Positions 1-20,947 of a stretch of 64,000 bases of DNA are shown piece after piece (within the stretch, counting starts at the first letter, position 1; every line of letters begins with the position of its first letter). This DNA is from Streptomyces sp. B21-083 (GTDB lineage Bacteria > Actinomycetota > Actinomycetes > Streptomycetales > Streptomycetaceae). The notes below the pieces were generated by a model. That model searched no databases, was not told where the DNA came from, and was given only the letters and a program-made list of their open reading frames with translations. Position numbers and translations under genes: made by a program. The stretch spans positions 4,526,001-4,590,000 of the forward strand of contig NZ_JARUND010000002.1 in assembly GCF_036898825.1 (NCBI RefSeq), read 5' to 3'.

Positions 1-1
1 G

Positions 2-5291: not shown

Positions 5292-5999
5292 TCACTCCGG
5301 ATGCCGGTTGGCCCCGGTGAAGCGGTAGTGCGTGCGGACCGCGCCCTGCTCGTCGCGGAGCAGGAAGTCCACGCCGGCCTCGCCCGCGTCCGTGCGCCAC
5401 GGGTACCGGAAGGCGTCGTGCTGCGCCGAGGCGCTGCCCGCCGGGTGCCGCACCCCGGCGGCCGTGAGCGCGGCGGCGATGCTTTCCGCGCCCTCGTGCA
5501 CGCCGCTCTCGTCGACGAGGCGGGCGCCGGGCAGGTAGAGGTCGGCGATCTCCTTGCTCAGCCGCTCGGTTCCCGACCCGCCGAGGGCCAGGTGCCGTTC
5601 GGCCTCCGCGTCGAGGCCGGTGTCCGGCACGGGGGGTTCGTTGAACTGGTAGTCGGCGATGATCCGGCCCTCGCCGTCCAGCAGGACCACGTCGAATCCG
5701 ATGGCCAGCACGGTGTCGTCGCCGCTCGGTGACATCGCCCAGTTGAAGGTCAGCGCGTCGTGATGCCCGACCGGTTCGCCGAGCGCCCGGAACCGAAGCT
5801 TCTGACCTCCCACGAACTGGTCGTACGCCTCGGTCACCCGGGCCACCAGGCCCTCGGTGCCCTGGAAGCGGCGGGTCTGGGTGCAGTGCAGCCCGTCCGG
5901 CGTCCACAGGGCCGCGATCGCTGCCCGCCGGGCGGCGGCATCGGGCTCGTTCCAGACGGCGACGTAACGCTCCAGCAGTACCTTCGCACTCACGTACAC
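5292..5999 (-). CDS. Tandem NTF2/SnoaL-like protein
   Basis: A 235-residue protein with two NTF2-like halves: about residues 1-125, which resemble the 135-residue protein at 3912, and a more divergent half from about 140. The start codon is GTG at 5999, with a second GTG at 5993 also possible; a GAGAGAG purine tract precedes both. It lies 109 bases upstream of the MmyB-like regulator gene and reads in the same direction, so the two may share a transcript. Function unknown: the fold serves cyclisation, hydration and binding. It could act on the polyketide chain or be a regulated ligand binder. Confidence 0.82.
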   Translation of the reverse strand: MYVSAKVLLERYVAVWNEPDAAARRAAIAALWTPDGLHCTQTRRFQGTEGLVARVTEAYDQFVGGQKLRFRALGEPVGHHDALTFNWAMSPSGDDTVLAIGFDVVLLDGEGRIIADYQFNEPPVPDTGLDAEAERHLALGGSGTERLSKEIADLYLPGARLVDESGVHEGAESIAAALTAAGVRHPAGSASAQHDAFRYPWRTDAGEAGVDFLLRDEQGAVRTHYRFTGANRHPE

Positions 6000-6066: not shown

Positions 6067-7527
6067 TCACTTGCCGGCATTCGTGCGGGGCAGCGCCTGG
6101 ACCAGGAGGGCCAGTGCGGCCGCGACCGCGACAAGGAAGATGATGCCCATGTCGAAGGCGTGGGCGTAGGCCGCGGAGTCGGGCCGCTCACCGAGCGCGT
6201 TGTAGAAGATCACGCCGATCACCGCGACGCCGATCGAGTTGCCGATCTGCAGGCCGGTGGTGAGCACGCCGGAGGCCGAGCCCGCGTACTGCGGGTTGAC
6301 CCGGGCGAGCACCGTGGACGCCAGCGGGGCGACGGCCAGGCCCATACCGGCACCGTCGATCACCAGGCCGGGGATGAGCCACGCGGTGTTCCCCGAGCCC
6401 AGGTGGGCGGCCGTGACGCCGAGGACCACCAGGCCCACGCCCATCAGCAGCGCACCGGTGGCCAGCACCTGCCGCCCGAGCTTCGCGGCGAACTTGGTGG
6501 CGTTCATCGAGGTGTACATGTAGCCGGCGCCGATGGCGGCGAAGAGCAGACCCGACTGCAGCGCGGTCAGCCCACGGCCGGCCTGCATGTACAGCGCGAG
6601 CACCAGGAAGAACGACGCCTGGCCCACCCAGAAGACCAGCTGGCAGCCGAGTCCGACGACGAAGGCGCGGTCACCGAACATGGCGATGTTCACCAGCGGG
6701 GAACCCCCCTTCGCGGCGATGGACCGCTCGACGACCACGAAGGCGGCCATCAGCACGGCGAACGCCCCGAAGGACAGCCAGGTCCAGAGCGGCCAGCCGG
6801 CCTCGCGGCCCTCGATCAGCGGGAGCACCAGGGCGACCAGCGCGAGGGTGATCACGCCGACCCCGAGGAAGTCCAGCTTCGGCCTGCCCTCGGCCCGTGA
6901 CTCGGGCACCACCTTCAGCGTCAGGCCCATGATGAGCAGGCCGAGCGGCAGGTTCACCAGGAAGCAGGAGCGCCAGCCCAGGCCGGCGATGTCGGCCTCG
7001 ATCAGCAGACCGCCGATGAGCTGGCCGAAGACAGCCGCCAGCCCCATGGCCAGGCCGTAGCCCGCGAACACCTTCAGGCGGGCGGCGCCGGTGTAGAGCG
7101 TGCCCAGCAGGGCCAGCACCTGGGGCGCGAGCATCGCCGCGGCCAGCCCCTGAAGCACCCTGGAGAAGATCAGGAAACCGCCGGACTGGGCGACGCCGCA
7201 CAGCAGCGAGGCGACGGTGAAGAGCCCCAGGCCCAGCAGGAACATCTTGCGGCGGCCGTACAGGTCGCCCAGCCGCCCGCCGGTGATCAGCCCCACGCCG
7301 TAGGCCAGTCCGAATCCGGCGACCACCCATTCGATGGCGGAGGAGCCGGCCTTCAGGTCGGTCTGCAACGAGGGAATGGCGACGTTGACGATGAAGAAGT
7401 CGAGGGTGGTGATGAAGACGCCGGCCAGCACGGTCGGCAGGATCAGCCGGTGCGGCGCGGCCGGGCTCCCACCCGTCGGCGTGGGAGGTGACGGCGTGGC
7501 GGGACTGCGATTGGTCTCGGTGGTCAT
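6067..7527 (-). CDS. MFS transporter, DHA2 (14-TM) drug-proton antiporter
   Basis: A 486-residue membrane protein with about 14 hydrophobic segments. It has the MFS motif A region GGRLGDLYGRRK between TM2 and TM3 and a motif-C-like stretch (GYGLAMGLAAVFGQLIGG). The length and TMs fit the EmrB/QacA DHA2 family, which exports antibiotics by proton exchange at the cell membrane. It is placed between the regulator block and the divergent biosynthetic operon, so it probably exports the product of this cluster; valanimycin likewise has a dedicated MFS exporter. The ATG at 7527 has a GGGAG site upstream. It shares a 299-base divergent promoter region with the gene at 7827. Confidence 0.92.
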   Translation of the reverse strand: MTTETNRSPATPSPPTPTGGSPAAPHRLILPTVLAGVFITTLDFFIVNVAIPSLQTDLKAGSSAIEWVVAGFGLAYGVGLITGGRLGDLYGRRKMFLLGLGLFTVASLLCGVAQSGGFLIFSRVLQGLAAAMLAPQVLALLGTLYTGAARLKVFAGYGLAMGLAAVFGQLIGGLLIEADIAGLGWRSCFLVNLPLGLLIMGLTLKVVPESRAEGRPKLDFLGVGVITLALVALVLPLIEGREAGWPLWTWLSFGAFAVLMAAFVVVERSIAAKGGSPLVNIAMFGDRAFVVGLGCQLVFWVGQASFFLVLALYMQAGRGLTALQSGLLFAAIGAGYMYTSMNATKFAAKLGRQVLATGALLMGVGLVVLGVTAAHLGSGNTAWLIPGLVIDGAGMGLAVAPLASTVLARVNPQYAGSASGVLTTGLQIGNSIGVAVIGVIFYNALGERPDSAAYAHAFDMGIIFLVAVAAALALLVQALPRTNAGK

Positions 7528-7826: not shown

Positions 7827-9428
7827 ATGAATCCCGGGAAAAAGTTCCACAGTTATGGGCTGTTTATCGCGGGGAAAGACATCGAGGGCGACGGCTGGGT
7901 CTACACCGTGAGTGCCAAGTCGCTGCTCGAGGATGTCTTCACCAGCGTCAGCCTCAAGCGCACTCTCGAGAAGGACGCGGATTCACCCGCGGCGCAGCAC
8001 CCTTACGTCATCGGCCGGTGCGCGATCGCCGACGACGCCGCCATCGACCTCGCGAGTGAGGCGGCCGCCGCGGCCGCGCCCGGCTGGGCGGCGGTCCCCC
8101 TGGAGCGACGCCTGCGGCTCGGCACCCTCTTCCGTGAGGAACTGCTGCGCCGCGAGGACGAGTTCGTGGAGATGCTGGTCGCCGAGTCCCACCCGGTGAA
8201 ACTGGCCCGCTGGGAGCTGAGCTGTCTGCTCCAGGTCTACAGCGAGGAGAGCATCAGCTGGTACGCGCAGCAGATGCACACCGAGTTCGAGGCCGGCGGA
8301 CGTCGGCTGATCGTCCGCCGCCAGCCGGACGGTGTGGTCGCCTTCAACCCCCCGCAGAACGCTCCGGCGCCCAGCGCGGCCCTGGCCGTCCTGGCCGTGA
8401 TGGCCGGAAACGCGGTCGTGGTGCGCGCCCCGCGCAGCATCGCGCTGAGCACCCTGTGGGTGCTGCGGGACGTGGCGGCACCGCTCCTGGAGGAGGTGGG
8501 GGCGCCCCCCGGCACCCTCAACGTGGTCTGCTCCAACCCCAGACAGACCCTTGACCGCTGGCTCGACAGCCCGCTCATCGACGACATCTTCTACATCGGC
8601 GGCAGCAAGGAGGGCCTGCGCTTCCAGGAGCAGTGCGTGGCCCACGGCAAGAAGCCGATCCTGGAGCTGGCCGGCAACGACGGGATCATCGTCTGGAAGG
8701 ACGCCGACCTCGGCTATGCCGCCGAGGCGATCACCGAGGCCTTCTACGGCTCCGGGCAGATCTGCATGGTGCCCAACTACGTGCTGGTGCACCCCGAGGT
8801 CGCCGACGACCTCATCGCCGAGGTCGAGCGGCAGGCCGCCGGTGTGCGGCCGGGCCATCCCGACGAGGAGGACGTCCTCCTGTCACCGGTGCGCCGCACC
8901 GAGCGGTTCTTCGGTCTGCTGGACCGGGCACTGGAGCAGGGCGCGCGGCTCGTCACCGGCGGCAGACGCACCGAGGTGGACGGCACCCCCTCCGAGACGG
9001 GCGTCTTCCTGCAGCCCACCGTGCTGCGGGTGGACGGGCTGGCCGCGGCCCGTGAGCACGACGTGGTGCGGCACGAGACGTTCTTCCCGCTGCTGCCGAT
9101 CGTGGTGGCCGAGCCGGACACCGACGAGGTACTCCTCGACCGTTTCATCGACTTCGTCAACACCAACGAGTACGGGCTGCGCAACTCCCTGTGGGCCAGG
9201 GACGAGAACGTCGTCGACACCTTCGTACAGCGGGTGGTCAACGGCGGTCTGCTGAAGGTCAACGACTCGCACATCGGCTTCCTGCCCTACCTGCCCAGCC
9301 ACGGCGGGACCGGCCTGACCGGCGGGGTCTTCGGCGAGGCCAACTACCCGATGCTCAAGACCTCCCACGTCCAGGGCGTCAGCATCGCGCGGGACGTCAG
9401 CCCGCACCGGACCGTCTTCGGCGACTGA
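7827..9428 (+). CDS. Aldehyde dehydrogenase-family protein; candidate acyl-thioester reductase
   Basis: A 533-residue member of the NAD(P)-dependent aldehyde dehydrogenase superfamily with an N-terminal extension of about 60 residues. The cofactor loop GGSKEG, the general-base Glu (E280, in LELAGND) and the catalytic Cys (C313, in GSGQIC) are all present. The family oxidises aldehydes, but some members run from thioesters to aldehydes. The PKS has no release domain and an aminotransferase lies two genes downstream. I therefore infer that it reduces the carrier- or CoA-bound chain to an aldehyde for transamination. The ATG at 7827 was chosen over longer starts because these lie in the promoter region. 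It is the first gene of a long operon. Confidence 0.85.
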   Translation: MNPGKKFHSYGLFIAGKDIEGDGWVYTVSAKSLLEDVFTSVSLKRTLEKDADSPAAQHPYVIGRCAIADDAAIDLASEAAAAAAPGWAAVPLERRLRLGTLFREELLRREDEFVEMLVAESHPVKLARWELSCLLQVYSEESISWYAQQMHTEFEAGGRRLIVRRQPDGVVAFNPPQNAPAPSAALAVLAVMAGNAVVVRAPRSIALSTLWVLRDVAAPLLEEVGAPPGTLNVVCSNPRQTLDRWLDSPLIDDIFYIGGSKEGLRFQEQCVAHGKKPILELAGNDGIIVWKDADLGYAAEAITEAFYGSGQICMVPNYVLVHPEVADDLIAEVERQAAGVRPGHPDEEDVLLSPVRRTERFFGLLDRALEQGARLVTGGRRTEVDGTPSETGVFLQPTVLRVDGLAAAREHDVVRHETFFPLLPIVVAEPDTDEVLLDRFIDFVNTNEYGLRNSLWARDENVVDTFVQRVVNGGLLKVNDSHIGFLPYLPSHGGTGLTGGVFGEANYPMLKTSHVQGVSIARDVSPHRTVFGD

Positions 9429-9500
9429 CCCGCCCGTCGGCGCCGCCGGCCGCCGACCGACCGACCACGACCCGAGAACAACCTGAACGAGGGGACAGCT

Positions 9501-10640
9501 GTGAGATCTCTCGACATGGCCCGCGACACCTGCGAGCGCTTCCACCCCGGGCTGGTCAAGGCCCTGTCGGACCTGCCGTTCGAGGAGCGCGAGGCGGCCG
9601 GCAGCCCGGTCGTCGACCTGTTCCGGTCGGCCGCGGGCGTGGGGCTGCTCGTTCCCACCGAGTACGGCGGGCTGGGCGCCGACCCGGTGGACGCCGTGCT
9701 CGTCCAGCGGGCCGTCGGCTCGCTGTCCCCGTCGCTGGCCGTCGCCTCGACGATGCACCACTTCACCGCTGCGATGCTCTACGCCCTCGCCGACGGCCCC
9801 GGCCGGCTGACACCCGCTCAGACCGAGGTCCTGCACACGGTGGTGCCGGAGCAGCGGCTGATGGCCTCCGGCTGGGCCGAGGGCCGCACCCAGCAGAACA
9901 TCCTCACCCCGGCGGTCACCGCGACCCCGGTCGAGGGCGGATATCTGCTCGACGGCGCCAAGAAGCCCTGCAGCCTGTCCCGTTCGATGAGCCTGCTCAC
10001 CGCGAGCATCGCGGTGCCCGGCGCGGACGGCACACCGGAGCTGGCACTGGCCCTGGTGGACTCCGCGTCGCCGGGCCTGACCCTGCACCCCTTCTGGAGC
10101 AGTGAGGTACTGGCCGCCGCCCAGAGCGACGAGGTGCGTCTGACGGACGTCTTCGTGCCCGAGGACATGGTGGTCCGTACCACCGCGGACGACCCCGGCC
10201 GCATCGACGACCTGCAGAACGCCGGCTTCGTCTGGTTCGAGATGCTGGTGGCGGGCGGGTACGCGGGCGCCGCCGCCGGCCTGACGGAGGAAGTGCTGGC
10301 CCGGGGGCGCGGCAGCGCGAGCGAACGCGGCGCCCTGCTGATCCGTACCGAGTCCGCGTTCCACCTGTTGCTGGGTGTGGCCCGCGCGGTGCGCGACGGG
10401 ATCGACGGGGAGGAAGCCGTCTCCCAGGTGCTGATCGCCCGCTTCGCCGCGCAGGAGGCGCTGTCCCTCGCCACCCAGCAGGCGCTGGAGCTGCTGGGCG
10501 GCATCGACTTCATCCGGTCCTCCGAGCACCAGCGGACGGCCGCCTCGGTGCGCCCGCTCGCCTTCCACCCGCCGTCCCAGGGCTCCACGGTCGAGCCGTT
10601 GCTGGCCTACGCCGCCGGCGCCCCGCTCGACCTGTCCTGA
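9501..10640 (+). CDS. Acyl-CoA dehydrogenase-fold flavoprotein, probable alkylamine N-hydroxylase (VlmH-like)
   Basis: A 379-residue protein with the acyl-CoA dehydrogenase fold: N-terminal helices, then a beta domain (LMASGWAEGRTQQNIL; SVPLTDVFVPED-like segment at about 213-223) and the C-terminal helical FAD domain. The isobutylamine N-hydroxylase VlmH of valanimycin belongs to this superfamily and uses reduced flavin from a partner reductase. The presence here of a flavin reductase gene, an extra SerRS gene and an aminotransferase gene makes alkylamine N-hydroxylation the best reading (inference by context). The start is GTG at 9501 after a GAGGGGA site. An ordinary acyl-CoA dehydrogenase acting on the chain cannot be excluded without alignment. 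Confidence 0.75.
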   Translation: MRSLDMARDTCERFHPGLVKALSDLPFEEREAAGSPVVDLFRSAAGVGLLVPTEYGGLGADPVDAVLVQRAVGSLSPSLAVASTMHHFTAAMLYALADGPGRLTPAQTEVLHTVVPEQRLMASGWAEGRTQQNILTPAVTATPVEGGYLLDGAKKPCSLSRSMSLLTASIAVPGADGTPELALALVDSASPGLTLHPFWSSEVLAAAQSDEVRLTDVFVPEDMVVRTTADDPGRIDDLQNAGFVWFEMLVAGGYAGAAAGLTEEVLARGRGSASERGALLIRTESAFHLLLGVARAVRDGIDGEEAVSQVLIARFAAQEALSLATQQALELLGGIDFIRSSEHQRTAASVRPLAFHPPSQGSTVEPLLAYAAGAPLDLS

Positions 10641-10675
10641 CCACGGGTCGCCCACAGACCGAAGGAGAGTCATCA

Positions 10676-11959
10676 ATGACCACGAGCGTCGACGCACCGG
10701 TCGGCCAGGAGGAGGAGGTCCTCCGGCTCTACCGGGCCCATCTGAGCAAGGGCCGGGCGACCCTGGCCGAGCTCTTCGGAACCCATATGGAGGTCGAGTC
10801 ACGGGGAGCCTGGCTGACCACCTCCGACGGTTCACGTTTCCTGAACGCGGGCGGCTACGGCGTCTTCATCCTGGGCGCCCGTCACCCCGTCGTCATGGAG
10901 GAGGTGCGCCGGCAGCTGGAGACCCACCCGGTGGCCACCCGCATCCTGCTGGAGCCGACCGTCGCCCGTGCCGCCGAAGCGCTGGTGTCGGTCGCCCCGG
11001 AGGGCCTGGACCGCGTGCACTTCGCGCTCTCCGGAGCGGAGGCGGTCGAAACCGGCCTGAAGCTCGCCCGGGCCAACGGCCGCAGGCGGACGGTCTCGAT
11101 GAAGGGCGGCTACCACGGCAAGACGCTCGGCGCCCTGTCGGCCACCGCCAAGGAGGTCTACCAGGCGCCCTTCCGCCCGCTGCTCCCCGACGTGGCGCAC
11201 CTGCCGTTCGGTGACATCGACGCCCTGCGCGCGGAGCTGTCCCGGCACCCGGGCGAGGTCTGCGTGATCATCGAGCCGGTGCAGGGCGAGGGCGGCGTCG
11301 TCATCCCGCCCAAGGGCTATCTCAAGCAGGTCGAGGAGGCGGTCCGGGAGTTCGACGGCTTCCTGGTGCTGGACGAGGTGCAGACCGGCTTCGGCCGGCT
11401 CGGTGAGTGGTGGGGACTGCAGGCCGAGGGCATCCGCCCGGACGTCCTGCTGGCCGGCAAGGCGCTCGGCGGCGGCGTGGTTCCGGTCTCGGCGGCCATC
11501 GCCACCCGCGAGGCGTTCCGGCCCTTCGACAAGGACCCGTACGTCCACACCTCGACCTTCTCCGGGCAGCCGCTGCTGATGGCGGCGGTACAGGGCACCG
11601 TCCGCGCGATCCGCGAGGAGGAACTGGTGCCGCGGGCCCGGGAACTCGGCGCCCGGCTGCTGCCGCGGATCACCGAGATCGCCCGGCGCAACATCCCCGA
11701 CCTGGTCGTGGACGTGCGCGGCCAGGGGCTGCTGATCGGCGTCGAGCTGGTCGAGCCGGGACTGGCCGGCGAGCTGCTGATCGAGCTGTTCAACCACGGA
11801 GTGGTCGCCAACCACTCGATGAACGGTTCCTCCGTGGTGCGGTTCACCCCGCCCGCGATCCTCACCGACCGGGATGTCGAATTCCTGCTCGACTCCTTCG
11901 ACAAGGCCACCGTCGACCTCGTACGACACTCGGCCACGATGCCCGAAGGCGGCAACTGA
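10676..11959 (+). CDS. Class III PLP-dependent aminotransferase
   Basis: A 427-residue fold-type I aminotransferase of class III (omega-aminotransferase / acetylornithine type). The cofactor signature LVLDEVQTGFGRLG and the Schiff-base Lys K262 in LLAGKALGGG are clear, and GGYHGKTLGALS is also typical. Members move an amino group onto aldehydes or ketones. Following the putative acyl reductase, it would convert the polyketide aldehyde to a primary amine, the substrate expected for the N-hydroxylase encoded just upstream. The start at 10676 has a GAAGGAGAG site. It is separated by only two bases from the SRPBCC gene, so translation is coupled. Confidence 0.93.
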   Translation: MTTSVDAPVGQEEEVLRLYRAHLSKGRATLAELFGTHMEVESRGAWLTTSDGSRFLNAGGYGVFILGARHPVVMEEVRRQLETHPVATRILLEPTVARAAEALVSVAPEGLDRVHFALSGAEAVETGLKLARANGRRRTVSMKGGYHGKTLGALSATAKEVYQAPFRPLLPDVAHLPFGDIDALRAELSRHPGEVCVIIEPVQGEGGVVIPPKGYLKQVEEAVREFDGFLVLDEVQTGFGRLGEWWGLQAEGIRPDVLLAGKALGGGVVPVSAAIATREAFRPFDKDPYVHTSTFSGQPLLMAAVQGTVRAIREEELVPRARELGARLLPRITEIARRNIPDLVVDVRGQGLLIGVELVEPGLAGELLIELFNHGVVANHSMNGSSVVRFTPPAILTDRDVEFLLDSFDKATVDLVRHSATMPEGGN

Positions 11960-11961
11960 CC

Positions 11962-12441
11962 ATGCGACACGTCGAACTCCACGCCCTGGTGCGCCTCGCC
12001 TCCGCCGAGGACGTCTTCGCCACCGTTCCGCGCTGGGAGCGCTATCCGGAACTGGCCCCGCACGTCCGGTCCACGACGGTGCACGCGACGCTGCCGGAGC
12101 CGGTCGGCAGCTCCAGCTGGGAACTGCACTTCCGCAGCGGGCTGCTGCGCTGGACCGAGAAGGACACGTTCCTCCGCGACCGGCTGGAGATCCGGTTCGC
12201 GCAGACCGACGGCGACTTCGACAGCTTCGAGGGCGTGTGGACGCTGCGCCAGGAGGGCCCGGACGTCTCCGTCGTCTTCACCGCCGACTTCGACTTCGGC
12301 ATCCCGAGCCTCGCCAGCATCCTCGACCCGATCGCCGAGCGCGTCATCCGGGAGACCGTCGCCTGGGCCGTCAGCGGCTTCTACCCCGGCACCACGATCC
12401 TCGACGCGGACCTGGATCTCGACCCGGCGGCCGCCCCGTAA
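11962..12441 (+). CDS. SRPBCC (START/Bet v1-like) family protein
   Basis: A 159-residue single-domain protein of the polyketide cyclase/COQ10-like SRPBCC fold. The diagnostic start ASAEDVFATVPRWERYPEL and the C-terminal amphipathic helix (PIAERVIRETVAWAVSGFY) are visible. The fold binds hydrophobic ligands in a deep cavity. Here there is no aromatic polyketide to cyclise, so it may bind or present the lipophilic amine or hydroxylamine intermediate (inference). Its ATG begins two bases after the aminotransferase stop. Exact reaction unknown. Confidence 0.85.
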   Translation: MRHVELHALVRLASAEDVFATVPRWERYPELAPHVRSTTVHATLPEPVGSSSWELHFRSGLLRWTEKDTFLRDRLEIRFAQTDGDFDSFEGVWTLRQEGPDVSVVFTADFDFGIPSLASILDPIAERVIRETVAWAVSGFYPGTTILDADLDLDPAAAP

Positions 12442-12468
12442 AACCTCCCTTCTGTCAGGAGTTCAACC

Positions 12469-13026
12469 GTGGACCAGGCAAATCCCTTCGAGACACCGAG
12501 GACCTTCTCGCTCCACCGCGCCGAGTACCTGGTCGGTCTGGCGGTGACGACCGGCCTGATCGTCCGGCACCTCGACGACATCCGCTGGCTGCCCGCCGTC
12601 GGACTGTTCCTCTACATCGACCTGATCGGCTACATCCCCGGCGCCATCGCCTTCCGGCGCTCCGGCGGCCGGGCCCCCATCCACAAGGGCTACTACGTCG
12701 CCTACAACGTCATGCACAGCCTGATCACCCAGGGCGCCGTCGCCGCCCTGTGGTGCTGGCTCGCCGGACCGGAATGGGCCCTGCTGGTGCTGCCCTTCCA
12801 TCTGTTCGGCGACCGCGGTCTGTTCGGCAACTTCATGAAGCCCTACGCCCTGCCGTTCGAGCCGGTCCGCCAGCCCGGCTATCTGCGGCTGCTGGACGAC
12901 CTGGGCCTCAAGCACCCCAAGCCGATCGGACACGTGAGCGACCCGGTCCCCATGGGCCATGTCCCCGGCTCCGACACCCGCACGCTCGATGTGACCGTTC
13001 CGACCGGACAGGGGGCGACCCGATGA
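12469..13026 (+). CDS. Small integral membrane protein, VlmO-like; probable hydrazine synthase
   Basis: A 185-residue protein with several hydrophobic helices and conserved-looking polar residues between them (RHLDDIRW, YNVMHSL, FHLFGDRGLFGNF). It resembles VlmO of the valanimycin pathway, a membrane-bound metalloenzyme reported to form the N-N bond of a hydrazine from the serine-hydroxylamine conjugate. The assignment rests on the fold type, size, position and the VlmB-like partner encoded two genes downstream, not on an alignment. The scattered His and Asp residues are plausible metal ligands. The start is GTG at 12469 after CAGGAG. It overlaps the flavin reductase gene by four bases. Confidence 0.68.
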   Translation: MDQANPFETPRTFSLHRAEYLVGLAVTTGLIVRHLDDIRWLPAVGLFLYIDLIGYIPGAIAFRRSGGRAPIHKGYYVAYNVMHSLITQGAVAALWCWLAGPEWALLVLPFHLFGDRGLFGNFMKPYALPFEPVRQPGYLRLLDDLGLKHPKPIGHVSDPVPMGHVPGSDTRTLDVTVPTGQGATR

Positions 13027-13604
13027 GCAAGGTGGCACTGCGCAGCCGCTGGAGCGCACAGGACCGGGCCATGCGCCGGCTGGCCACTCCCGTGTCGGTG
13101 ATCACCGCCGACCACGAGGGCCGCCGCCACGGCACCACCGTCAGTACCGTGACCCGGATCTCCCGCCGCCCACAAGTCCTGGGCGTGTGCCTGAAACCCG
13201 ACTCGGTACTGGCCAAACTCGCCACCGCCGAGGGCCGTTTCGCGGTCAACGTGCTCAGCGGTGAGCAGGCCTCGCTGGCCCGCCACTTCGCCGAGAGCTC
13301 CCGGCCCGACGGCGCCGCCCAGTTCCTGGGCATCGACTGGCGTCCGGCCACCTACTCCGGGGCGCCGCTCTTCCACGGCGCGCTGGCGCACTACGACTGC
13401 CGGGTGGTCGGCCGTTTCCAGGTCGGCGACCACGAGGTGCTGCTCGGTGCCGTCGTCCACGCCGACCTCGCCGAGGGCGACCCGCTGATCAGCAGCTCCG
13501 GGGAGATCTTCGCCGGAAAGCTGATACCGGTCGCCGAGAACGACGAGGGACCCCCGCCCGGACTCCGGCCCACCGAGTCGGCGAAGGAGAACGTGCCCTC
13601 ATGA
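13023..13604 (+). CDS. Flavin reductase (VlmR/HpaC-like), partner of a flavin-dependent N-hydroxylase
   Basis: A 193-residue protein of the flavin reductase-like (FMN-binding split barrel) family. The typical motifs MRRLATPVSVITADHEG, GTTVSTVTRIS and FAVNVLSGEQ are visible. It uses NAD(P)H to make free reduced flavin for a separate monooxygenase. In valanimycin synthesis VlmR serves VlmH, and this gene is encoded close to the VlmH-like gene at 9501, so the same two-component system is inferred. The ATGA overlap with the gene before and with the diiron gene after shows tight translational coupling of the three. Confidence 0.9.
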   Translation: MSKVALRSRWSAQDRAMRRLATPVSVITADHEGRRHGTTVSTVTRISRRPQVLGVCLKPDSVLAKLATAEGRFAVNVLSGEQASLARHFAESSRPDGAAQFLGIDWRPATYSGAPLFHGALAHYDCRVVGRFQVGDHEVLLGAVVHADLAEGDPLISSSGEIFAGKLIPVAENDEGPPPGLRPTESAKENVPS

Positions 13605-14581
13605 ACGCGCCCACCGCCCAAGAGGCCGACTGGGACACCGCCCCCGGCCTGCTCGACGGGGCCAAGGAGCTGACCCTGGGCCCGGACCACTGCGACCTGG
13701 CGTACTGGTTCACCGAGGTCGCGCAGGGCACCCTGCGTGGCCGAGGCGCCACCGGGCACCACGAGAAGGCCGACGTGCCGGAGTTCCTGCGCCGGCCGGG
13801 TCCCCTGCGTGAGGCGCTGGTCCTGGAGTTCGGCTTCCGCGGCCTGTCGGAGGAGATCGCCACCCGCCTGCTGGGCCACTACGTCTCGCGCGCCCCCGGC
13901 ATCCCGGAGATGGAGTTCTACGCCACCCAGCTGATGGACGAGGCCCGGCACGCCCGGGTGTTCCGCAACCATCTGGTGGAACTGGGCCTGCCGAGCCGGA
14001 CCCTGTCGGCCGACATCGAGGAGATGGCCGCCGACTACCGGCGCGAAGTCCTCCAGCCGGTGGAGGACTTCACCCTGGAGATCATCCGTGACCAGGGCGA
14101 CTTCCACGGCGGGGTGGCCGTCTTCGCCATCGTCATCGAGGGTGTGCTCGCCCCGGCCGCCGAGCTCAGCGAGCGCAAGTGGACCCCGCTGTCGGAGGCC
14201 ACCCAGGAGATCTCCCGGGGCACGGCGATCGACGAGATCCGGCATCTGACCGTGGCCGCCACGATCCTGCGCGACCACATCCGGGACCACCCCGAGTACC
14301 TGCCGCGGCTGACGGAGATCCTCGCGGCCGGCACCGAGCTGTGGGACCGGGTCCCGGACCGGCCCTACGTCATCCACCGCGAGGAGCTGTTCCAGCAGGG
14401 CATGCTCGAACAGGCCGAACTGATCGGCGACTACGAGGTCTGGCCGGGCGTACGGCTCCTCGACACGACCCCCGAGCAGCGCTACGACATGGCCGAGCGG
14501 TGGACCGACGAGATGGCCGCGAGCCGCATGGCCTACATGGGCCTGCCCGCGGACGCGCTGGGACGGAGTGAGCTTCCGTGA
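13601..14581 (+). CDS. Ferritin-like diiron protein, VlmB-like; probable azoxy synthase
   Basis: A 326-residue protein of the ribonucleotide-reductase-R2/ferritin-like helical fold. Two ExxH motifs, E114-ARH117 and E212-IRH215, together with E76 and E180, give the full set of six diiron ligands at the usual spacing. VlmB of valanimycin is a non-haem diiron enzyme that oxidises the hydrazine through azo to azoxy. The adjacent VlmO-like and VlmR-like genes support the same role. Other diiron oxygenases, such as the AurF-type N-oxygenases, share the ligand pattern. The start ATG overlaps the preceding stop, and its own stop overlaps the KASIII start GTG at 14578. Confidence 0.8.
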   Translation: MNAPTAQEADWDTAPGLLDGAKELTLGPDHCDLAYWFTEVAQGTLRGRGATGHHEKADVPEFLRRPGPLREALVLEFGFRGLSEEIATRLLGHYVSRAPGIPEMEFYATQLMDEARHARVFRNHLVELGLPSRTLSADIEEMAADYRREVLQPVEDFTLEIIRDQGDFHGGVAVFAIVIEGVLAPAAELSERKWTPLSEATQEISRGTAIDEIRHLTVAATILRDHIRDHPEYLPRLTEILAAGTELWDRVPDRPYVIHREELFQQGMLEQAELIGDYEVWPGVRLLDTTPEQRYDMAERWTDEMAASRMAYMGLPADALGRSELP

Positions 14582-15615
14582 GCGCGCCCGAGTCCTCCGC
14601 GGCCCCCGTCTTCGGAACACCTGCCGGGCGGGCGGCCGTGATCGCCGGGGTCGGTGGCTACGTACCGCCGACGGTGGTCACCAACGACGATCTGACGGCC
14701 CGGCTGGACACCTCCGACGCATGGATCCGCTCCCGGACCGGCATCGCCTCCCGGCATGTCGTCACCCCGGGCACCGCCACCTCCGACCTCGCCGTCGAGG
14801 CCGGTCGGCGGGCTCTGAAATCGGCGCAGGACTCACAGGTCGACGCGGTGGTGCTGGCCACCACCACACCCGACCACCCCTGCCCGGCGACCGCCCCCGC
14901 CGTGGCCGCCCGGCTGGGGCTGAACGGGGTGCCGGCCTTCGACGTGGCGGCGGTGTGCACCGGCTTCCTGTACTCCCTGGCCGCCGCCGCCGGATTCATC
15001 GCCTGCGGTCTGGCCAACCGGGTGCTGGTCGTCGCCGCGGACGCGTTCACCACGATCATCGACCCGGCCGACCGCAGTACGGCGGTCATCTTCGCCGACG
15101 GCGCCGGCGCCGTGGTGCTCCGGGCCGGCACGGCGGACGAACCGGGTGCCCTCGGCTCGGTGGTGCTCGGCAGCGACGGTGAACTGAGCGATCTCATCAG
15201 CGTGCCGGCCGGCGGCTCACGTCAACGCTCCTCCGGCGTCCCGCCCCGGCCGGGCGACGAGTACTTCCAGATGGCCGGCCGGGCCACCTACCGGCACGCG
15301 GTGGAGCGGATGACCGCCGCCTCCCTGCGCTCACTCGCCGACACCGGCTGGCGGCCGGAGGACGTCGACCGGTTCGCCGCGCACCAGGCGAACGCGCGCA
15401 TCCTCGGCGCTGTCGCGCAACGGCTCGACATCGGGCCGGAGCGACAGCTCTCCAACATCGAGCACGTCGGCAACACCGGCGGCGCCTCGATCCCGCTGCT
15501 CCTGGACCAGAGCGCCGCCGACGGCAGCCTGACGGCCGGCGACCGGCTGCTGCTGACCGCCTTCGGCGGCGGTCTGGCCTGGGGTGCGGCGACCCTCACC
15601 TGGCCCGAGCTGTAG
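14578..15615 (+). CDS. Beta-ketoacyl-ACP synthase III (FabH-like)
   Basis: A 345-residue thiolase-fold enzyme. The catalytic Cys C127 lies in AAVCTGF, the His in AAHQANARI and the Asn in HVGNTGGAS, giving the complete C-H-N triad of FabH. FabH condenses an acyl-CoA starter with malonyl-ACP. A dedicated FabH next to an ACP and a KASII suggests that the cluster builds or supplies a short acyl starter or extender on its own carrier (inference). The alternative is an acyltransferase role for a KASIII homologue. The start GTG overlaps the diiron gene stop, so the operon continues without a gap. Confidence 0.92.
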   Translation: MSAPESSAAPVFGTPAGRAAVIAGVGGYVPPTVVTNDDLTARLDTSDAWIRSRTGIASRHVVTPGTATSDLAVEAGRRALKSAQDSQVDAVVLATTTPDHPCPATAPAVAARLGLNGVPAFDVAAVCTGFLYSLAAAAGFIACGLANRVLVVAADAFTTIIDPADRSTAVIFADGAGAVVLRAGTADEPGALGSVVLGSDGELSDLISVPAGGSRQRSSGVPPRPGDEYFQMAGRATYRHAVERMTAASLRSLADTGWRPEDVDRFAAHQANARILGAVAQRLDIGPERQLSNIEHVGNTGGASIPLLLDQSAADGSLTAGDRLLLTAFGGGLAWGAATLTWPEL

Positions 15616-15688
15616 GCCGAGCCGGCGCCGCGCCCCTTTTCTCCGACCCGCACATCCCACGCACCGTCACCATGGAGGCAGGCTCGTC

Positions 15689-15919
15689 ATGTTCGAGAAA
15701 CTGAAGGAAATCCTGGTCAACAAGCTCAAGGTCACCCCCGAGCAGATCACCCTGGAGGCCACCCGGGAGGACATCGAGCTGGACTCGCTCGCCGTCGTCG
15801 AGCTGTCCCTCGTCCTGGAGAACGAGCTGGGAGTGTCCGTCTCCGACGACGAGCTGCTTGAGGCCGAGACCGTCGGGGACATGGTGGCGCTGATCGAGCA
15901 GGGCAGCGCGCGGGTGTGA
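15689..15919 (+). CDS. Discrete acyl carrier protein
   Basis: A 76-residue carrier protein. The phosphopantetheine attachment Ser is S33 in IELDSLAVVE, and the acidic helix II is typical of ACPs. It is encoded between the KASIII and KASII genes and probably carries the intermediates they elongate. The start ATG at 15689 follows a GGAGGCAGG purine stretch. Its stop TGA shares bases with the ATG of the KASII gene (TGATG), so the two are translationally coupled. Confidence 0.95.
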   Translation: MFEKLKEILVNKLKVTPEQITLEATREDIELDSLAVVELSLVLENELGVSVSDDELLEAETVGDMVALIEQGSARV

Positions 15920-17130
15920 TGGCCGACATCGCCGTCACCGGTCTCGGCCTGGTCACCCCGGCCGGGATCGGCACCGCCGCCAGCTGGGCGGGCGTACGCG
16001 CCGGACGCCCCGCCGCCGCCCTCGACCCCACCCTCGACGGCAACCCGGTGCGCATCTCGTGCCGGGTGCCGGACTGGGATCCGGACGCCCTGCTCGGCGC
16101 CCGCCGGGCTCACCGGCTCGACCGCTTCAGCCAGTTCGCGCTGGTCGCGGCGCGCGAGGCGGTCACCGACGCCGGCCTGGACCCGGCCACCTGGGACGGC
16201 GCCCGGGTAGGTGTGGTCCTCGGCTGCGCGGACGGCGGACCGGGCACCGTGGAGGAACAGCACCGGGTGCTGGTGGAGCAGTCACCGCACCGGGTCTCCC
16301 CGCTGCTGCTGCCGATGCAGCTGCCGAACATGCTGGCCGGGCAGACGGCCATGGAGTTCGGCGCGACCGGCCCCAACATGGTGGTGGCCACGGCCTGTGC
16401 TTCCGGGACCTCGGCCATCGGTCTCGCCCGCGACCTGCTGCTCCTCGACCGGTGCGACGTGGTGCTCACCGGCGGCAGCGAGGCCATGATCACCCCGTTG
16501 GTGATGGCCGGCTTCGCCCGTATGGGCACGCTGTCGCGGCGCACCGACGACCCGGCCGCGGCCTCCCGGCCGTTCGACGTGGACCGCGACGGCTTCGTGG
16601 CCGGGGAGGGTGCCGGGGTGCTCGTCCTGGAGCGGTCCGTCGACGCCGTCGCACGCGGTGCACGGGTCCGCGCCCGGGTGGCCGGATACGGAGCCTCCGC
16701 CGACGCCCATCACGTCACCTCTCCGCACCCGGACGGAAGGGGGCTGGAGGCGGCGATGCGTGCCGCGCTCACCGACGCCGGCTGTCTGCCGTCCGATGTC
16801 GGGCATGTCAACGCGCACGGCACGGCCACCCGGCTCAACGACCTCGCCGAGGCCCGGGTGGTGCACCGTCTGCTCGGCGACCCGCTGGTGACTTCCACCA
16901 AGGGCGTCACCGGTCATCTGCTCGGCGCGGCCGGGGCTGTCGAGGCCGCGTTCACCGTGCTCGGTCTGGAGGAGCAGGTGGTACCGCCCACCGCCAACCT
17001 CGACGTCCCCGATCCCGCCTGCGAGGTCAAGGTGGCCACCACGGCCACCGGGGCCCGGTTCGACCTCGCGCTGAGCAGCTCGATGGGATTCGGCGGACAG
17101 AACGCCGTGCTGGCCTTCACGACCGCCTGA
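15919..17130 (+). CDS. Beta-ketoacyl-ACP synthase II (FabF-like)
   Basis: A 403-residue elongating ketosynthase. The nucleophile is C160 (ATACASGTSA) and the two catalytic His lie in VNAHGTAT and KGVTGHLLGAAG. The ending SSSMGFGGQNAVLAF is standard. With the KASIII and ACP it forms a three-gene elongation set, but no matching discrete ketoreductase, dehydratase or enoylreductase gene is present here. Those would have to come from primary metabolism or from the type I PKS. A GTG at 15916 is an alternative start; I chose the ATG that overlaps the ACP stop. Confidence 0.93.
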   Translation: MADIAVTGLGLVTPAGIGTAASWAGVRAGRPAAALDPTLDGNPVRISCRVPDWDPDALLGARRAHRLDRFSQFALVAAREAVTDAGLDPATWDGARVGVVLGCADGGPGTVEEQHRVLVEQSPHRVSPLLLPMQLPNMLAGQTAMEFGATGPNMVVATACASGTSAIGLARDLLLLDRCDVVLTGGSEAMITPLVMAGFARMGTLSRRTDDPAAASRPFDVDRDGFVAGEGAGVLVLERSVDAVARGARVRARVAGYGASADAHHVTSPHPDGRGLEAAMRAALTDAGCLPSDVGHVNAHGTATRLNDLAEARVVHRLLGDPLVTSTKGVTGHLLGAAGAVEAAFTVLGLEEQVVPPTANLDVPDPACEVKVATTATGARFDLALSSSMGFGGQNAVLAFTTA

Positions 17131-17231
17131 TCGGTCGACAGAACGCGTCCAAGGCCGAACAGCCCCGTTCGTGCCTCACCGACGTCGACCCGAGGTCCGC
17201 GATCCAAGATCCAAGATCCCAGGAGCACGCC

Positions 17232-18725
17232 ATGACTGCCGGAAGTCCATCCTCGTCCGCCCCCACCAGAACCCTGACGACCAGCCATATCGTCTTCATG
17301 ATCGTCGCCGCGGCCGCACCGCTGTCCGCGATGGTCGGCACCGTCCCGCTGGCGTTCGCGATCGGCACCGCCGAAGGCGTCCCCGCCGCGTTCCTGTTCG
17401 CCGGCGTGACCCTTGTGTGCTTCTCCGTCGGGTACGCGATCAGTGCTCGCCGCACCGGCGGCTCCGGCGGCTTCTACGCCTCCATAGCCGACGGCCTCGG
17501 CCGCCCGGCGGCGGTGGGCAGCGGCTGGACGGCGGTCGTCTCCTACAACTGCGCGACCATCGGCCTGGTCGGCGCGTCGGGCTACTTCACCAGCCTGGTG
17601 CTGTCCGGCCACGGGGTGCACCTGTCGTGGGAGTGGTGCAGCGCGATCGGTTTGGCGCTCATCGGCGTCCTGGGATACCGGGACATCGCCCTCAGCGCCC
17701 GGGTGCTGGCGGTGCTGATGATCGCCGAGATCGGCGTCCTGGCCGCCCTGGACGTGGCCGTGCTGGCCCGGCACGGCCTGCACGCGCTGCCGGCCACCTC
17801 GTTCTCCTGGCACGTGGCGACCGGCCCCGGCGTCGGCGTCTCGCTGATGTTCGCCTTCGTGTCGTTCATCGGCTTCGAGTCGGCCGCCCTGTACGGCAAG
17901 GAGACGCGGAACCCGCACCGCAGCGTGCCGCGGGCGACCTACGTCGCCGCGGTGCTGATCTCCGGCTTCTACGCGCTGACCAGCTGGTTGGCGGTCGGCG
18001 CGATCGGCCCGGGCCAGGTGCGGGAGACCGCCGGGAAGCAGCTGGGCGACCTCTTCTTCAACCTGGGCGACGACTACCTCGGGGCCGCCGGAAGCACCGC
18101 CCTGGAGATCATGCTCTGCTCCAGCCTGTTCGCCGCGACCCTGGCCCTGCACAGCGCGGCCAACCGGTATGCCCAGGTGATGGCCGACGACGGCCTGCTG
18201 CCCGCGTTCCTGGGCAGGCTGCACCCGAGGTTCGGCTCACCGCACCTGGCCGGCCTCGTGCAGGTGGCGGTGTGCGCCGCCGCCGTGGTCGCCTTCGCGG
18301 CCGGCGGACTGGACCCGTACGCGAACATGACGACCAGCATGCTCGGCCTGGGCACCCTCGGGATCGTCGTCCTGCAGGCGCTGTCGGCGCTGTCCGCGGT
18401 CGCCCTGCGCCGCAAGGGCGTCCGGCTCGGCTGGTGGCGCGGCACGCTGGTGCCGCTGCTGAGCTTCGCCGGGCTGGCCGTCACCGTCCGGCTGGTGGTC
18501 GGCAACTTCGACGTGCTGACCGGCGCGACCGGTGGCGTCGTCGCGCGGCTGCCGTGGGTGATCGTGATCGTCGCCGGGCTCGGCGTCCTGTGGGCGCTGC
18601 GGCTGCGGGCCGTCTCCCCGGAGCGCTACCGGGCGCTGGCTTCCTCGCATGTCGCCGCCGAAACGGACCGGCCGGACACCGTCGCGCCGGCCCGTACCCC
18701 CGCCGCGATCTCCGAACGGACCTGA
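17232..18725 (+). CDS. APC-family amino acid permease
   Basis: A 497-residue membrane protein with about 12 hydrophobic segments. The N-terminal IVAAAAPLSAMVGTVPLAFA and the middle FVSFIGFESAALYGKETRNP are characteristic of the amino acid/polyamine/organocation superfamily. It acts in the cell membrane. Encoded next to a seryl-tRNA synthetase, it could bring in serine or export an amino-acid-like product (inference). The 101-base gap before it contains a short iterated GATCCAA sequence (about 17200-17215) and a CAGGAG ribosome site. The C-terminal ~35 residues are hydrophilic and Pro/Arg/Thr-rich. Confidence 0.92.
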   Translation: MTAGSPSSSAPTRTLTTSHIVFMIVAAAAPLSAMVGTVPLAFAIGTAEGVPAAFLFAGVTLVCFSVGYAISARRTGGSGGFYASIADGLGRPAAVGSGWTAVVSYNCATIGLVGASGYFTSLVLSGHGVHLSWEWCSAIGLALIGVLGYRDIALSARVLAVLMIAEIGVLAALDVAVLARHGLHALPATSFSWHVATGPGVGVSLMFAFVSFIGFESAALYGKETRNPHRSVPRATYVAAVLISGFYALTSWLAVGAIGPGQVRETAGKQLGDLFFNLGDDYLGAAGSTALEIMLCSSLFAATLALHSAANRYAQVMADDGLLPAFLGRLHPRFGSPHLAGLVQVAVCAAAVVAFAAGGLDPYANMTTSMLGLGTLGIVVLQALSALSAVALRRKGVRLGWWRGTLVPLLSFAGLAVTVRLVVGNFDVLTGATGGVVARLPWVIVIVAGLGVLWALRLRAVSPERYRALASSHVAAETDRPDTVAPARTPAAISERT

Positions 18726-18760
18726 CACCGCCCCCTGTTCACGAGATACGGAGGAACGAC

Positions 18761-20068
18761 GTGCACGACGTACGCGAGCTGATCGAGAACGGTCCGGAGG
18801 CGGAGCGTCGGCTGGCCCGCCGCGGTTATCCGCTCGACCTCGACGCGCTGCGGGCCCTACAGCGGCGGCGCCTGTCCGCGCTGGCGGCGGTGAACGAACT
18901 GCGGGCCGAGCTGAAGAAGGCGTCCCGTGGCCCGCACCGGGCCGGCGGGCCGCGGGCCGCGGAGGGGGCGGACCCGACGGGCGAGGACCCGCACGCACGC
19001 AACCGCCGCCTGCGCGAACGGGTGCAGGCCGCGGAGGCCGAGGCCCGGGAGGCCGGCCAGGAGCTGGAGCGGCTGCTGCTGACAGTGCCGAACCTGCCCT
19101 CGGACGACCTGCCCGACGGCTCCAGCGAGAAGGAGGCCGTCGAGGTGCGGCGGATCGGCCCTCAGCGCGGCACGGGGCCCGGCCTCGGGCGGCACCACGA
19201 CGACCTCGGCGTGCGGCTCGGCGTGCTGGACCCCACGGCGGCGGGGAAGCTGTCGGGGGCCCGGTTCAGCGTCAGCAGCGGCCCCGGCGCCCTGCTGGAA
19301 CGGGCGCTGGGTTCCCTGCTGCTGGACCTGCACACCCGGGAGCACGGGTACACCGAGTACGCGGTACCGCACCTGGTCAGCCGGGAGACCATGACCGGCA
19401 CAGGGCAGCTACCGAAGTTCGAGGAGGACCTGTTCGTCACGTCGGTGGGCGGCCGGGAGATGTTCCTGATCCCCACCGCGGAGGTGCCGTTGACCAACCT
19501 GGTGGCGCGGGAGGTCCTCGACGAGCGCCGGCTGCCGCTGGCCATGACCGCTCGCACCCCGTGCTATCGGGCCGAGGCCGGGTCCTACGGCCGCGACACC
19601 CGCGGCATCCTGCGACTGCACCAGTTCGACAAGGTGGAGCTGGTACGGATCTGCCGGGACGAGGACGCCGCGCAGCAGCTGGAGCTGATGCTCGGTCATG
19701 TCGAGGAGTGCCTGAAACGGCTGGAGTTGTCGTACCGGGTGGTGCTGCTGCCGGCCGGCGACATCGGGTTCTCCGCTCGGAAGACGTACGACGTCGAGGT
19801 GTGGCTGCCCGGCAGCGACAGCTACCGCGAGATCTCCTCGGTGTCGGACTGCGGCACCTTCCAGGGGCGCCGGGCCGCCATCCGCTACCGGACAGGTGAT
19901 GCCCGCAGGACCGCGGCGTCGCTCAATGGTTCCGGCCTGCCCATCGGGCGTACCGTCGCCGCGCTGCTGGAGCAGGGCCAGCGGACGGACGGTTCGGTGG
20001 TGCTGCCGGAGGCGCTGGCCGCGTACACCGGCTTCCGTCGGCTGCTGCCCGGGGGCGGCACCGAGTAG
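18761..20068 (+). CDS. serS: Cluster-associated seryl-tRNA synthetase (VlmL-like)
   Basis: A 435-residue class II synthetase. It has an N-terminal coiled-coil arm (about residues 30-110), motif 2 (CYRAEAGSYGRDTRGILR) and motif 3 (NGSGLPIGRTVAALLE), with the TAEVPL serine-binding segment. The arm contains an unusual Gly/Pro/Arg-rich insert near residues 55-80. A second SerRS inside a biosynthetic cluster is the hallmark of valanimycin-type pathways, where VlmL makes seryl-tRNA as the serine donor for an aminoacyl transfer onto the hydroxylamine. It is unlikely to be the housekeeping copy, given this operon context. The start is GTG at 18761 after GGAGGAACG. Confidence 0.93.
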   Translation: MHDVRELIENGPEAERRLARRGYPLDLDALRALQRRRLSALAAVNELRAELKKASRGPHRAGGPRAAEGADPTGEDPHARNRRLRERVQAAEAEAREAGQELERLLLTVPNLPSDDLPDGSSEKEAVEVRRIGPQRGTGPGLGRHHDDLGVRLGVLDPTAAGKLSGARFSVSSGPGALLERALGSLLLDLHTREHGYTEYAVPHLVSRETMTGTGQLPKFEEDLFVTSVGGREMFLIPTAEVPLTNLVAREVLDERRLPLAMTARTPCYRAEAGSYGRDTRGILRLHQFDKVELVRICRDEDAAQQLELMLGHVEECLKRLELSYRVVLLPAGDIGFSARKTYDVEVWLPGSDSYREISSVSDCGTFQGRRAAIRYRTGDARRTAASLNGSGLPIGRTVAALLEQGQRTDGSVVLPEALAAYTGFRRLLPGGGTE

Positions 20069-20152: not shown

Positions 20153-20947
20153 TCAGGCGCTCTGGCCCAGCAGGGCGGTGGAGCCGTGCAGGTCCGGGTC
20201 CTGGTTGAGCATCTGCCGGAAGAGCAGGCGCAGCTTCGGCGAGGGCTCCATGCCCAGCTCGTCGACCAGCCGCAGCCGGGCCGTGTTGTAGACCCCGACC
20301 GCTTCGGCCTGACGCCCGCTCCGGTAGAGCGCCACCATGAGCAGTTCGGTGATCCGCTCCCGCCATGGGTGGGCGATGCTCATCCGCTTCAGTTCCCCGA
20401 CCACTCTCATCGGCTCGCCCACGCGGATGCGCAGCCAGTAGGCGTCCTCCCGTGCGGACAGGTACTCCTCCTCCCACTCCGTGGCCGCGCTCCGGCACAG
20501 CGGCCCGGCGGCGGCGTCACCCAGCGGGGCCCCCCGCCACAGCCCGAGCGCCTGCTCCAGCAGGTCCAGCGCGGCCGGCAGATCCTCGGCCGCCGTCATC
20601 CGTTGGGACTGGCGTATGTATCCGCGGAACCGGTTGACATCGATGTTCTCCGGCGCCACGTCCAGGCTGTAGCCGGAACTCCGGGTGCGCAGCACGTCGG
20701 CCGCCGCCGGGTCGCCCGCCAACTGGACCAGCGTGCGTCGCAGTCGCGACACATGTGCCTGGAGCGCGTTCTCGACCGTGGCCGGTGGATTCTCGTCCCA
20801 CAACTCGCTGTACAACGTCGAGACCGGCACCACCGCGGGGGCCTGGATGAGCAGGCTCGCCAGCAGACAGCGCTGCCGAAGCCCTGGAACGGCGTGAACC
20901 GTGCCGCCGACACCGACCGCTAACGTGCCCAAGATCCGGAACTGCAA
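20153..20947 (-). CDS. SARP-family transcriptional activator
   Basis: A 264-residue Streptomyces antibiotic regulatory protein: an OmpR-like winged helix (about residues 1-95, TVENALQAHVSRLRRTL) and a bacterial transcriptional activation domain (about 100-250). SARPs bind heptameric repeats and switch on one cluster; valanimycin has such a regulator (VlmI). No ATG or GTG is available at the right place. The start is TTG at 20947 behind a GGGGG site, and codon 9 is TTA (+ strand 20921-20923). Production is thus expected to be weak and bldA-dependent. It converges on serS and is the likely pathway-specific activator of region 1. Confidence 0.9.
   Translation of the reverse strand: MQFRILGTLAVGVGGTVHAVPGLRQRCLLASLLIQAPAVVPVSTLYSELWDENPPATVENALQAHVSRLRRTLVQLAGDPAAADVLRTRSSGYSLDVAPENIDVNRFRGYIRQSQRMTAAEDLPAALDLLEQALGLWRGAPLGDAAAGPLCRSAATEWEEEYLSAREDAYWLRIRVGEPMRVVGELKRMSIAHPWRERITELLMVALYRSGRQAEAVGVYNTARLRLVDELGMEPSPKLRLLFRQMLNQDPDLHGSTALLGQSA

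Follow-up and report, generated by a model that had tools for sequence, protein, structure and literature searches.

What product comes from a gene cluster that sets the enzymes of azoxy (N-N bond) formation beside a polyketide synthase (PKS), and what part does a small set of ketoacyl synthase genes play in it? These questions are raised by a stretch of 64,000 nucleotides from Streptomyces sp. B21-083 (the window; G000:C2:4526001-4590000, in a genome of 10.5 Mb and 5 contigs), where an operon on the + strand spans positions 7908-20068. To judge from its sequence, the cluster very probably directs the synthesis of a VlmO/VlmB-type aliphatic azoxy compound, and the support for an azoxy pathway whose amine derives from a chain is good. 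The genes of the operon are as follows.

7908..9428, + strand: aldehyde dehydrogenase (ALDH)-fold enzyme, proposed acyl reductase (PF00171); start uncertain, the frame being open further upstream
9501..10640, + strand: VlmH-like flavin-dependent N-hydroxylase, acyl-CoA dehydrogenase fold
10676..11959, + strand: class III aminotransferase (AMT), proposed to convert the aldehyde to the amine (PF00202)
11989..12441, + strand: SRPBCC protein of the polyketide cyclase family (PF03364); start possibly a few codons upstream
12469..13026, + strand: VlmO-like membrane hydrazine synthase, by identity to VlmO of three clusters and four invariant residues
13023..13604, + strand: VlmR-like flavin reductase (PF01613)
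13601..14581, + strand: VlmB-like diiron azoxy-forming oxygenase, by a match to PDB 6d9f/8wvr and two ExxH motifs
14578..15615, + strand: β-ketoacyl-ACP synthase III (KASIII), FabH-type (PF08541, PF08545)
15689..15919, + strand: freestanding acyl carrier protein (ACP; PF00550), DSL serine at Ser33
15916..17130, + strand: KASII, FabF-type (PF00109, PF02801)
17298..18725, + strand: APC family permease (PF00324)
18761..20068, + strand: VlmL-like second seryl-tRNA synthetase (SerRS), seryl-tRNA synthetase family (TIGR00414, serine--tRNA ligase equivalog)

Gene set and order are observed directly, as are the homology, catalytic residues and neighbourhood described below. All the open reading frames of the operon are genuine, being long, codon-biased and on the + strand, and the translated genes have no internal stops. 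Overlaps of 4 bases join VlmO to VlmR, VlmR to VlmB, VlmB to KASIII and ACP to KASII, and the remaining seven intergenic gaps measure 27-73 bases, except for 167 between KASII and the permease gene. A first-pass annotation of this DNA had named an acyl-CoA-dehydrogenase-fold flavoprotein, a flavin reductase, a membrane protein, a VlmB-type protein and an extra SerRS in one operon, all of which we confirmed. The SRPBCC and APC permease genes inside the operon, and a VlmA gene outside the window, were not on its list. The ALDH-fold enzyme carries Cys286 and Glu253 at positions that we take to be catalytic in this fold, and motifs that we assume to mark the active sites locate Cys127/His269/Asn299, an intact triad, in KASIII and Cys161/His301/His334 in KASII.

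That VlmH, VlmR, VlmO, VlmB and SerRS form an azoxy set, as the first-pass annotation held, is borne out by protein families, a PDB match and identities to other clusters. Both components of the two-component N-hydroxylase, VlmH and VlmR, are present in the window. The VlmH match to the acyl-CoA-dehydrogenase N-domain is weak (26.8 bits, cut-off 22.9), and the protein is 54-58% identical to those in the VlmH position in three further azoxy clusters. Comparison with three clusters gave 43-46% for VlmR, 56-65% for VlmO and 56-58% for the cluster SerRS, which is an extra copy, 40% identical to the genome's other SerRS. Taken together, VlmH, VlmO, VlmR, VlmB, SerRS, the APC permease and VlmA are 43-65% identical to their counterparts in loci L096, L124 and L075, azoxy clusters with no ALDH or AMT match.

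A Pfam scan found no family for the VlmO or VlmB proteins. Homologues of VlmO numbered 1006 at E up to 1e-3, and in an alignment of 24 sequences picked from the best 120 of the 1006, D51, H83, H111 and D115 are invariant. In the available part of PMC11705231 the essential residues of VlmO are D51, H82, H110 and D114; relative to that numbering the window protein has one residue extra between the first and second, and it retains all four. Nine other loci number these residues 51/82/110/114: seven of ten tried, L124, and a second locus of the same genome (among those ten, L137 could not be numbered by motif, L008 had no row and L124 was numbered separately). The homologue search and residue alignment identify the 12469 product as a VlmO orthologue, the relation on which the first-pass annotation had staked its reading. 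A PDB sequence search with VlmO returned nothing useful, and its structure model (mean pLDDT 65.5) was too weak for use. The 13601 product, of 326 amino acids, had been put forward as VlmB, and it matches 'Putative VlmB homolog' in the PDB (6d9f/8wvr, E 6.1e-121, residues 1-317 aligned). It carries two ExxH motifs, at 114 and 212, and appears to be a homologue of the diiron type, with the metal predicted.

The seryl transferase that the first-pass annotation expected in the rest of the cluster lies about 6.1-7.0 kb left of the window. This VlmA gene occupies about x = -7043 to -6066 on the - strand (G000:C2:4519017-4519916; coordinates below 1 are written as x, the G000:C2 position minus 4526000). 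Its product matches PF09924 with 199 bits over positions 2-298 of 298, and PF09924 is the family used for VlmA in the azodyrecin paper (PMC9379638). The chemistry of VlmA, VlmH, VlmR, VlmO and VlmB has been demonstrated by others in relatives, according to the accessible portions of reviews (PMC11705231).

We infer the substrate chain and the product from these genes. The route would start from an acyl chain, supplied most likely by the single-module reducing PKS next door (or by fatty acid synthesis). This chain would be reduced to the aldehyde by the ALDH-fold enzyme and converted to an amine by the class III aminotransferase, whereupon VlmH and VlmR would hydroxylate the amine nitrogen. The dedicated SerRS would charge tRNA-Ser, VlmA would place the seryl group on the oxygen of the hydroxylamine, VlmO would rearrange the ester to a hydrazine, and VlmB would oxidise the hydrazine to the azoxy group. 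KASIII, ACP and KASII would then extend the seryl-derived carboxyl with malonate, and decarboxylation would leave a methyl ketone. No match to a decarboxylase like VlmD, which we take to be the name of the valanimycin amino acid decarboxylase, was found by tblastn in the window or in 60 kb to its left. The earlier suggestion that the amine comes from a PKS chain rather than from valine is plausible, and so is a fatty-acid chain as its source, as the ALDH-fold enzyme and aminotransferase fit the roles proposed for Ady2 and Ady4 (PMC9379638).

To see how widely this gene set is kept, we compared 62 VlmB loci of close relatives, with flanks of up to 10 kb, from a scan of GTDB species genomes; the set was found through exact VlmB peptide words and is hence biased to near relatives. 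VlmO is present in 62/62, VlmH, AMT and SRPBCC in 61 each, ALDH in 58, KASIII and ACP in 59 each, KASII (at least 60% identity) and VlmR in 53 each, SerRS in 44 and VlmA in 41. When VlmA was sought genome-wide in 21 of the close-relative genomes, it was found in 21/21. A related PKS (at least 50% identity) flanks at least 37 of the 62. We dropped six of 59 KASII matches (29-33%, PKS ketosynthases) and four of 41 PKS matches (35-45%, weak).

A broader view came from a survey of 394 genomes of the family, in which VlmB matches at E up to 1e-3, some of them short and partial, were present in 54, and in which E < 1e-80 (45% identity or more) gave 46 places, the window's included, in 43 genomes. 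A class survey of 394 genomes had 5 matched. The 46 survey loci that were read, 45 from the family and one from the class, include several truncated where a contig stops. In 35/46, KASIII is no more than 6 kb away from VlmB, and the other counts are VlmH 45, VlmO 41, AMT and SRPBCC 37 each, ALDH 36, VlmA 35, ACP and KASII 32 each, and PKS 14. SRPBCC tracks the amine genes, being present in 37/37 loci with ALDH or AMT and in 0/9 with neither. Three survey loci have a pyridoxal-phosphate (PLP) decarboxylase in place of ALDH and AMT, and KASIII occurs in 0/3 of them. The azoxy core is also found in annotated records with a 'VlmB-like protein', including L096, which also holds the other genes that we would expect of a valanimycin cluster, and in two annotated clusters on plasmids VlmB is immediately followed by an APC permease gene. 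VlmB homologues occur on 11 Streptomyces plasmid records, NZ_CP024986 (pSA3239) among them, all annotated 'VlmB-like protein'; the five examined are linear and carry the azoxy core.

With such counts, the tie to a PKS and the FabH-ACP-FabF set do not deserve the word unusual that the first-pass annotation gave them. The azodyrecin paper had already noted that KASIII-like and SerRS genes are frequent near certain VlmA groups (PMC9379638), and the KA57-A (azx) cluster of S. rochei 7434AN4 is listed as 'Azoxyalkene and type I PKS' in the part of PMC6662830 available to us.

The genes that flank the operon are:

1..1336, + strand: type I PKS, C-terminal part; start about -4978 (Pfam on the full 2104-aa protein, locus L144)
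1450..3006, + strand: AMP-binding acyl-CoA ligase (PF00501, PF13193)
3077..3859, + strand: type II thioesterase (PF00975)
3912..4319, + strand: SnoaL-like protein (PF12680), kept in S. geranii, A. guanduensis and K. mediocidica
4337..5155, - strand: MmyB-like XRE regulator (PF17765, PF13560)
5292..5999, - strand: second copy of a SnoaL-like protein (weak PF12680, under cut-off), kept in the same three
6067..7527, - strand: MFS exporter (PF07690)
20153..20947, - strand: SARP-type regulator (PF03704, PF00486), in the same place in S. geranii, A. guanduensis and K. mediocidica

The PKS (about -4978 to 1336) is a single module, KS-AT-DH-ER-KR-ACP, of 2104 amino acids, and Pfam on the full protein found no thioesterase domain. 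A small ACP gene lies at about x = -5372. Still further to the left come genes for an AMP-binding enzyme that resembles FAAL, for a response regulator and a histidine kinase, and for a SARP, in an order that S. geranii keeps. In the wide context of six relatives, S. geranii and A. guanduensis share the window arrangement and K. mediocidica has the same genes rearranged; over the 60 kb read for each, a ligase of the 1450..3006 kind follows the PKS in 6/6. A further KASIII, with 58% identity to that of the window, lies about 12 kb left of VlmA (G000:C2:4506446-4507465; about x = -19554 to -18535), is followed by ACP-like and HAD-like genes (by resemblance), and may belong to another small pathway.

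The role of KASIII-ACP-KASII is the less certain part of the pathway, and the KAS step as a whole is one that we infer. Our preferred reading, held tentatively and at somewhat less than an even chance, is that the three genes are a conserved module that forms a C-C bond at the amino-acid carboxyl of the N-N compound, taking azoxy (or hydrazine) serine to methyl ketones, alcohols or rings, and that they belong with VlmO rather than with the alkyl-chain genes. Malonate extension of the seryl-derived carboxyl is thus favoured, with the same reserve, over alkyl-chain building, because the amine arm occurs without KASIII, the KAS genes occur without a PKS, ACP-KASII stands by VlmO, and the product groups fit. 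The amine arm seems not to need KASIII, since three survey loci (L129, L134, L137) have ALDH and AMT without it in the stretch read. Among 22 survey loci with KASIII and no PKS match in the first stretch, eight were followed further outward: a related PKS (63-70%) is present in G276, L121 and L104, G029 has a weak KS-AT pair (33%/30%), and the extended reading found no KS-AT pair in G044, G271, G218:C3 or G132:C30. The KAS set therefore need not accompany a PKS, as four of eight such loci lack the KS-AT pair. Two more of the 22, L098 (A. guanduensis) and L103 (K. mediocidica), have a PKS. In L180 and L183, ACP-KASII comes straight after VlmO, and the 20 kb read there holds neither VlmB nor KASIII. 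Groups on the amino-acid side of known products comprise alcohols, ketones, methoxides, carboxylic acids, amides, an exo-olefin and lactones, the primary and secondary alcohols being credited to the KA57-A paper (reference 24 there) and the ketones to references 29-30, of which the second is, by its DOI in PMC5315673, the LL-BH872alpha paper (PMC9379638). S. misionensis, which has a single VlmB gene with the KASIII-ACP-KASII set beside it, is reported to make an LL-BH872alpha analogue in the available section of PMC5315673. If correct, carboxyl extension would account for two sorts of azoxy product, those that retain the amino acid carboxyl and those with one carbon more. Among the literature found by title or by the start of an abstract, none gives the KAS set a role; papers beyond these may.

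The alternative, that KASIII-ACP-KASII is a private starter and elongation unit making or priming the alkyl chain for ALDH and aminotransferase, is possible though rather doubtful. It draws on the FabH type and intact triad of KASIII, on the single operon that the set shares with ALDH and AMT, and on the company of these two genes in 33/35 survey loci with KASIII, the two exceptions being clusters split across two genome places. Against it stand the three survey loci with ALDH and AMT but no KASIII, the ACP-KASII that follows VlmO even without KASIII, and the related PKS beside at least 37/62 close relatives, which would make a second chain builder redundant. L118 and L120 were considered as cases of KAS genes without the amine arm and rejected, for ALDH-AMT-SRPBCC-VlmO-ACP lies elsewhere in both genomes. 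In these split operons (L118 with L168 in G400, L120 with L167 in G263), one place holds those genes and the other VlmH-VlmB-KASIII-KASII with VlmA and a desaturase. Several observations weigh against carboxyl extension. The four PKS-less KAS loci share one subtype (VlmB 50-51%), and so are one line of evidence rather than independent ones, and of the eight loci three have the related PKS and one the weak KS-AT pair. The 33/35 association with ALDH and AMT counts here as well, as do clusters with KASIII but no KASII, or with KASII but no KASIII, both of which occur. SerRS is present in only 18/46 survey loci, the KAS step has no known carboxyl activator (the AMP ligase could serve either arm), and fatty acid synthesis is another possible source of the alkyl chain. 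For elaiomycin and maniwamycin the carbon origins are assumed background, elaiomycin being, as we take it, serine plus one acetate-derived carbon. The link between product and cluster in S. misionensis is at species level, from the part of a review at hand (PMC5315673), and the likeness to KA57-A and elaiomycin (S. atratus) is one of published descriptions.

Two further explanations touch the ends of the pathway. It is unlikely that the PKS at the left edge serves another product and that the amine comes from ordinary fatty acids, as in azodyrecin clusters, which are proposed to draw these from primary metabolism (PMC9379638). The four KAS loci without a KS-AT pair are consistent with such a source, and in the window the PKS lies about 6.5 kb from ALDH with three opposite-strand genes between them; yet S. 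geranii and A. guanduensis keep the PKS-ligase-thioesterase-SnoaL block beside the operon, K. mediocidica has it there in rearranged form, S. triculaminicus, S. coeruleorubidus and S. monashensis carry a second type of PKS next to ALDH and divergent from it, and KA57-A is classed with type I PKS (PMC6662830, as far as the excerpt goes). The clusters of the latter three species also hold VlmJ/VlmK, LLM and desaturase genes. That the pathway ends at a hydrazine or other N-N product, or that the cluster is inactive, is very improbable: VlmO-VlmA loci without VlmB do occur in genomes of the genus, but here VlmB is intact, with both ExxH motifs and 88-94% identity in the two closest relatives, and no operon gene is interrupted by a stop.

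One such VlmB-less locus is in the same genome, outside the window (G000:C2:3681449-3688640; L007, L008). Its VlmO has all four essential residues (51/82/110/114), and the VlmO-VlmA pair is followed by genes for SRPBCC, a flavin reductase, a DAO-family FAD oxidoreductase, a methyltransferase, a P450 and an AttH-like protein (by resemblance, with no Pfam match). No VlmB is found at this locus, the genome having one VlmB match in all, and the block is also present in S. geranii, G975 and G831. Eight loci of the genus (L173-L178, L165, L166) read VlmO-VlmA-VlmH-AMT-SRPBCC-flavin reductase-DAO with no VlmB match in the 20 kb read around them; G077 (L173) has none genome-wide, and G263 and G400 (L165, L166) have one elsewhere. 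The FAD oxidase may stand in place of VlmB at these loci, perhaps giving another N-N product. L179, L180 and L183 are ALDH-VlmH-AMT-SRPBCC-VlmO-ACP-KASII operons in which the stretch read contains neither KASIII nor VlmB; in L180 and L183 a methyltransferase comes next (in L183 also a P450), as at the second locus, and L179 ends at a contig end. Titles and abstract starts yielded no literature on VlmB-less VlmO clusters, and papers outside this reading may exist.

A separate aromatic type II PKS cluster occupies 39296-63998 of the window. It has a ketosynthase pair (45293-47769), a ketoreductase, a cyclase, two FAD oxygenases, a glycosyltransferase, biotin carboxylase and carboxyltransferase genes at 41560 and 53604, and, by resemblance only, sugar-nucleotide genes.

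Aliphatic azoxides have biological activity, and in the published network the majority of VlmA groups have no linked product (PMC9379638). The azoxy pathway described here is of a known kind, common in Streptomyces; the complete cluster is now laid out with its VlmA and PKS, the PKS and KAS arrangement in azoxy clusters proves widespread rather than odd, and KASIII-ACP-KASII is singled out as one conserved three-gene part with no proven function.

Among known systems, clusters of the valanimycin type (L096, L124) share VlmA, VlmH, VlmO, VlmR, VlmB, SerRS and the APC permease with the window cluster at 43-65% identity, the cluster SerRS corresponding to VlmL. They differ in having a PLP decarboxylase and no match to ALDH, AMT, SRPBCC or KASIII, and L096 additionally has VlmJ/VlmK-type and valine-pathway genes. 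The VlmJ/VlmK olefin-forming pair gave no tblastn match in the window or in 60 kb to its left. Azodyrecin clusters (ady/azd) resemble the window in using a dehydrogenase and an aminotransferase for the amine together with the VlmA/H/R/O/B set, whereas they have no cluster aminoacyl-tRNA synthetase, alanine being proposed, and their product keeps the carboxyl as a methyl ester made by Ady1 (PMC9379638). The azodyrecin pathway as described includes a desaturase, and no KAS gene is mentioned in it, Ady5 being undescribed there (PMC9379638); LLM and desaturase references had no match in the window or in 60 kb to its left.

Compounds of the LL-BH872alpha/elaiomycin type bear ketone or methoxide/alcohol groups on the amino-acid-derived side (PMC9379638). 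The KAS-bearing azoxy cluster of S. misionensis is a sister subtype of the window's, with another PKS subtype, an LLM-type oxidoreductase and P450s, unlike the window. In KA57-A a type I PKS shares the cluster with an azoxy core that includes homologues of VlmO and VlmB, as far as the accessible parts of PMC6662830 and PMC11705231 describe it, and this combination of azoxy core and type I PKS is the one found in the window cluster.

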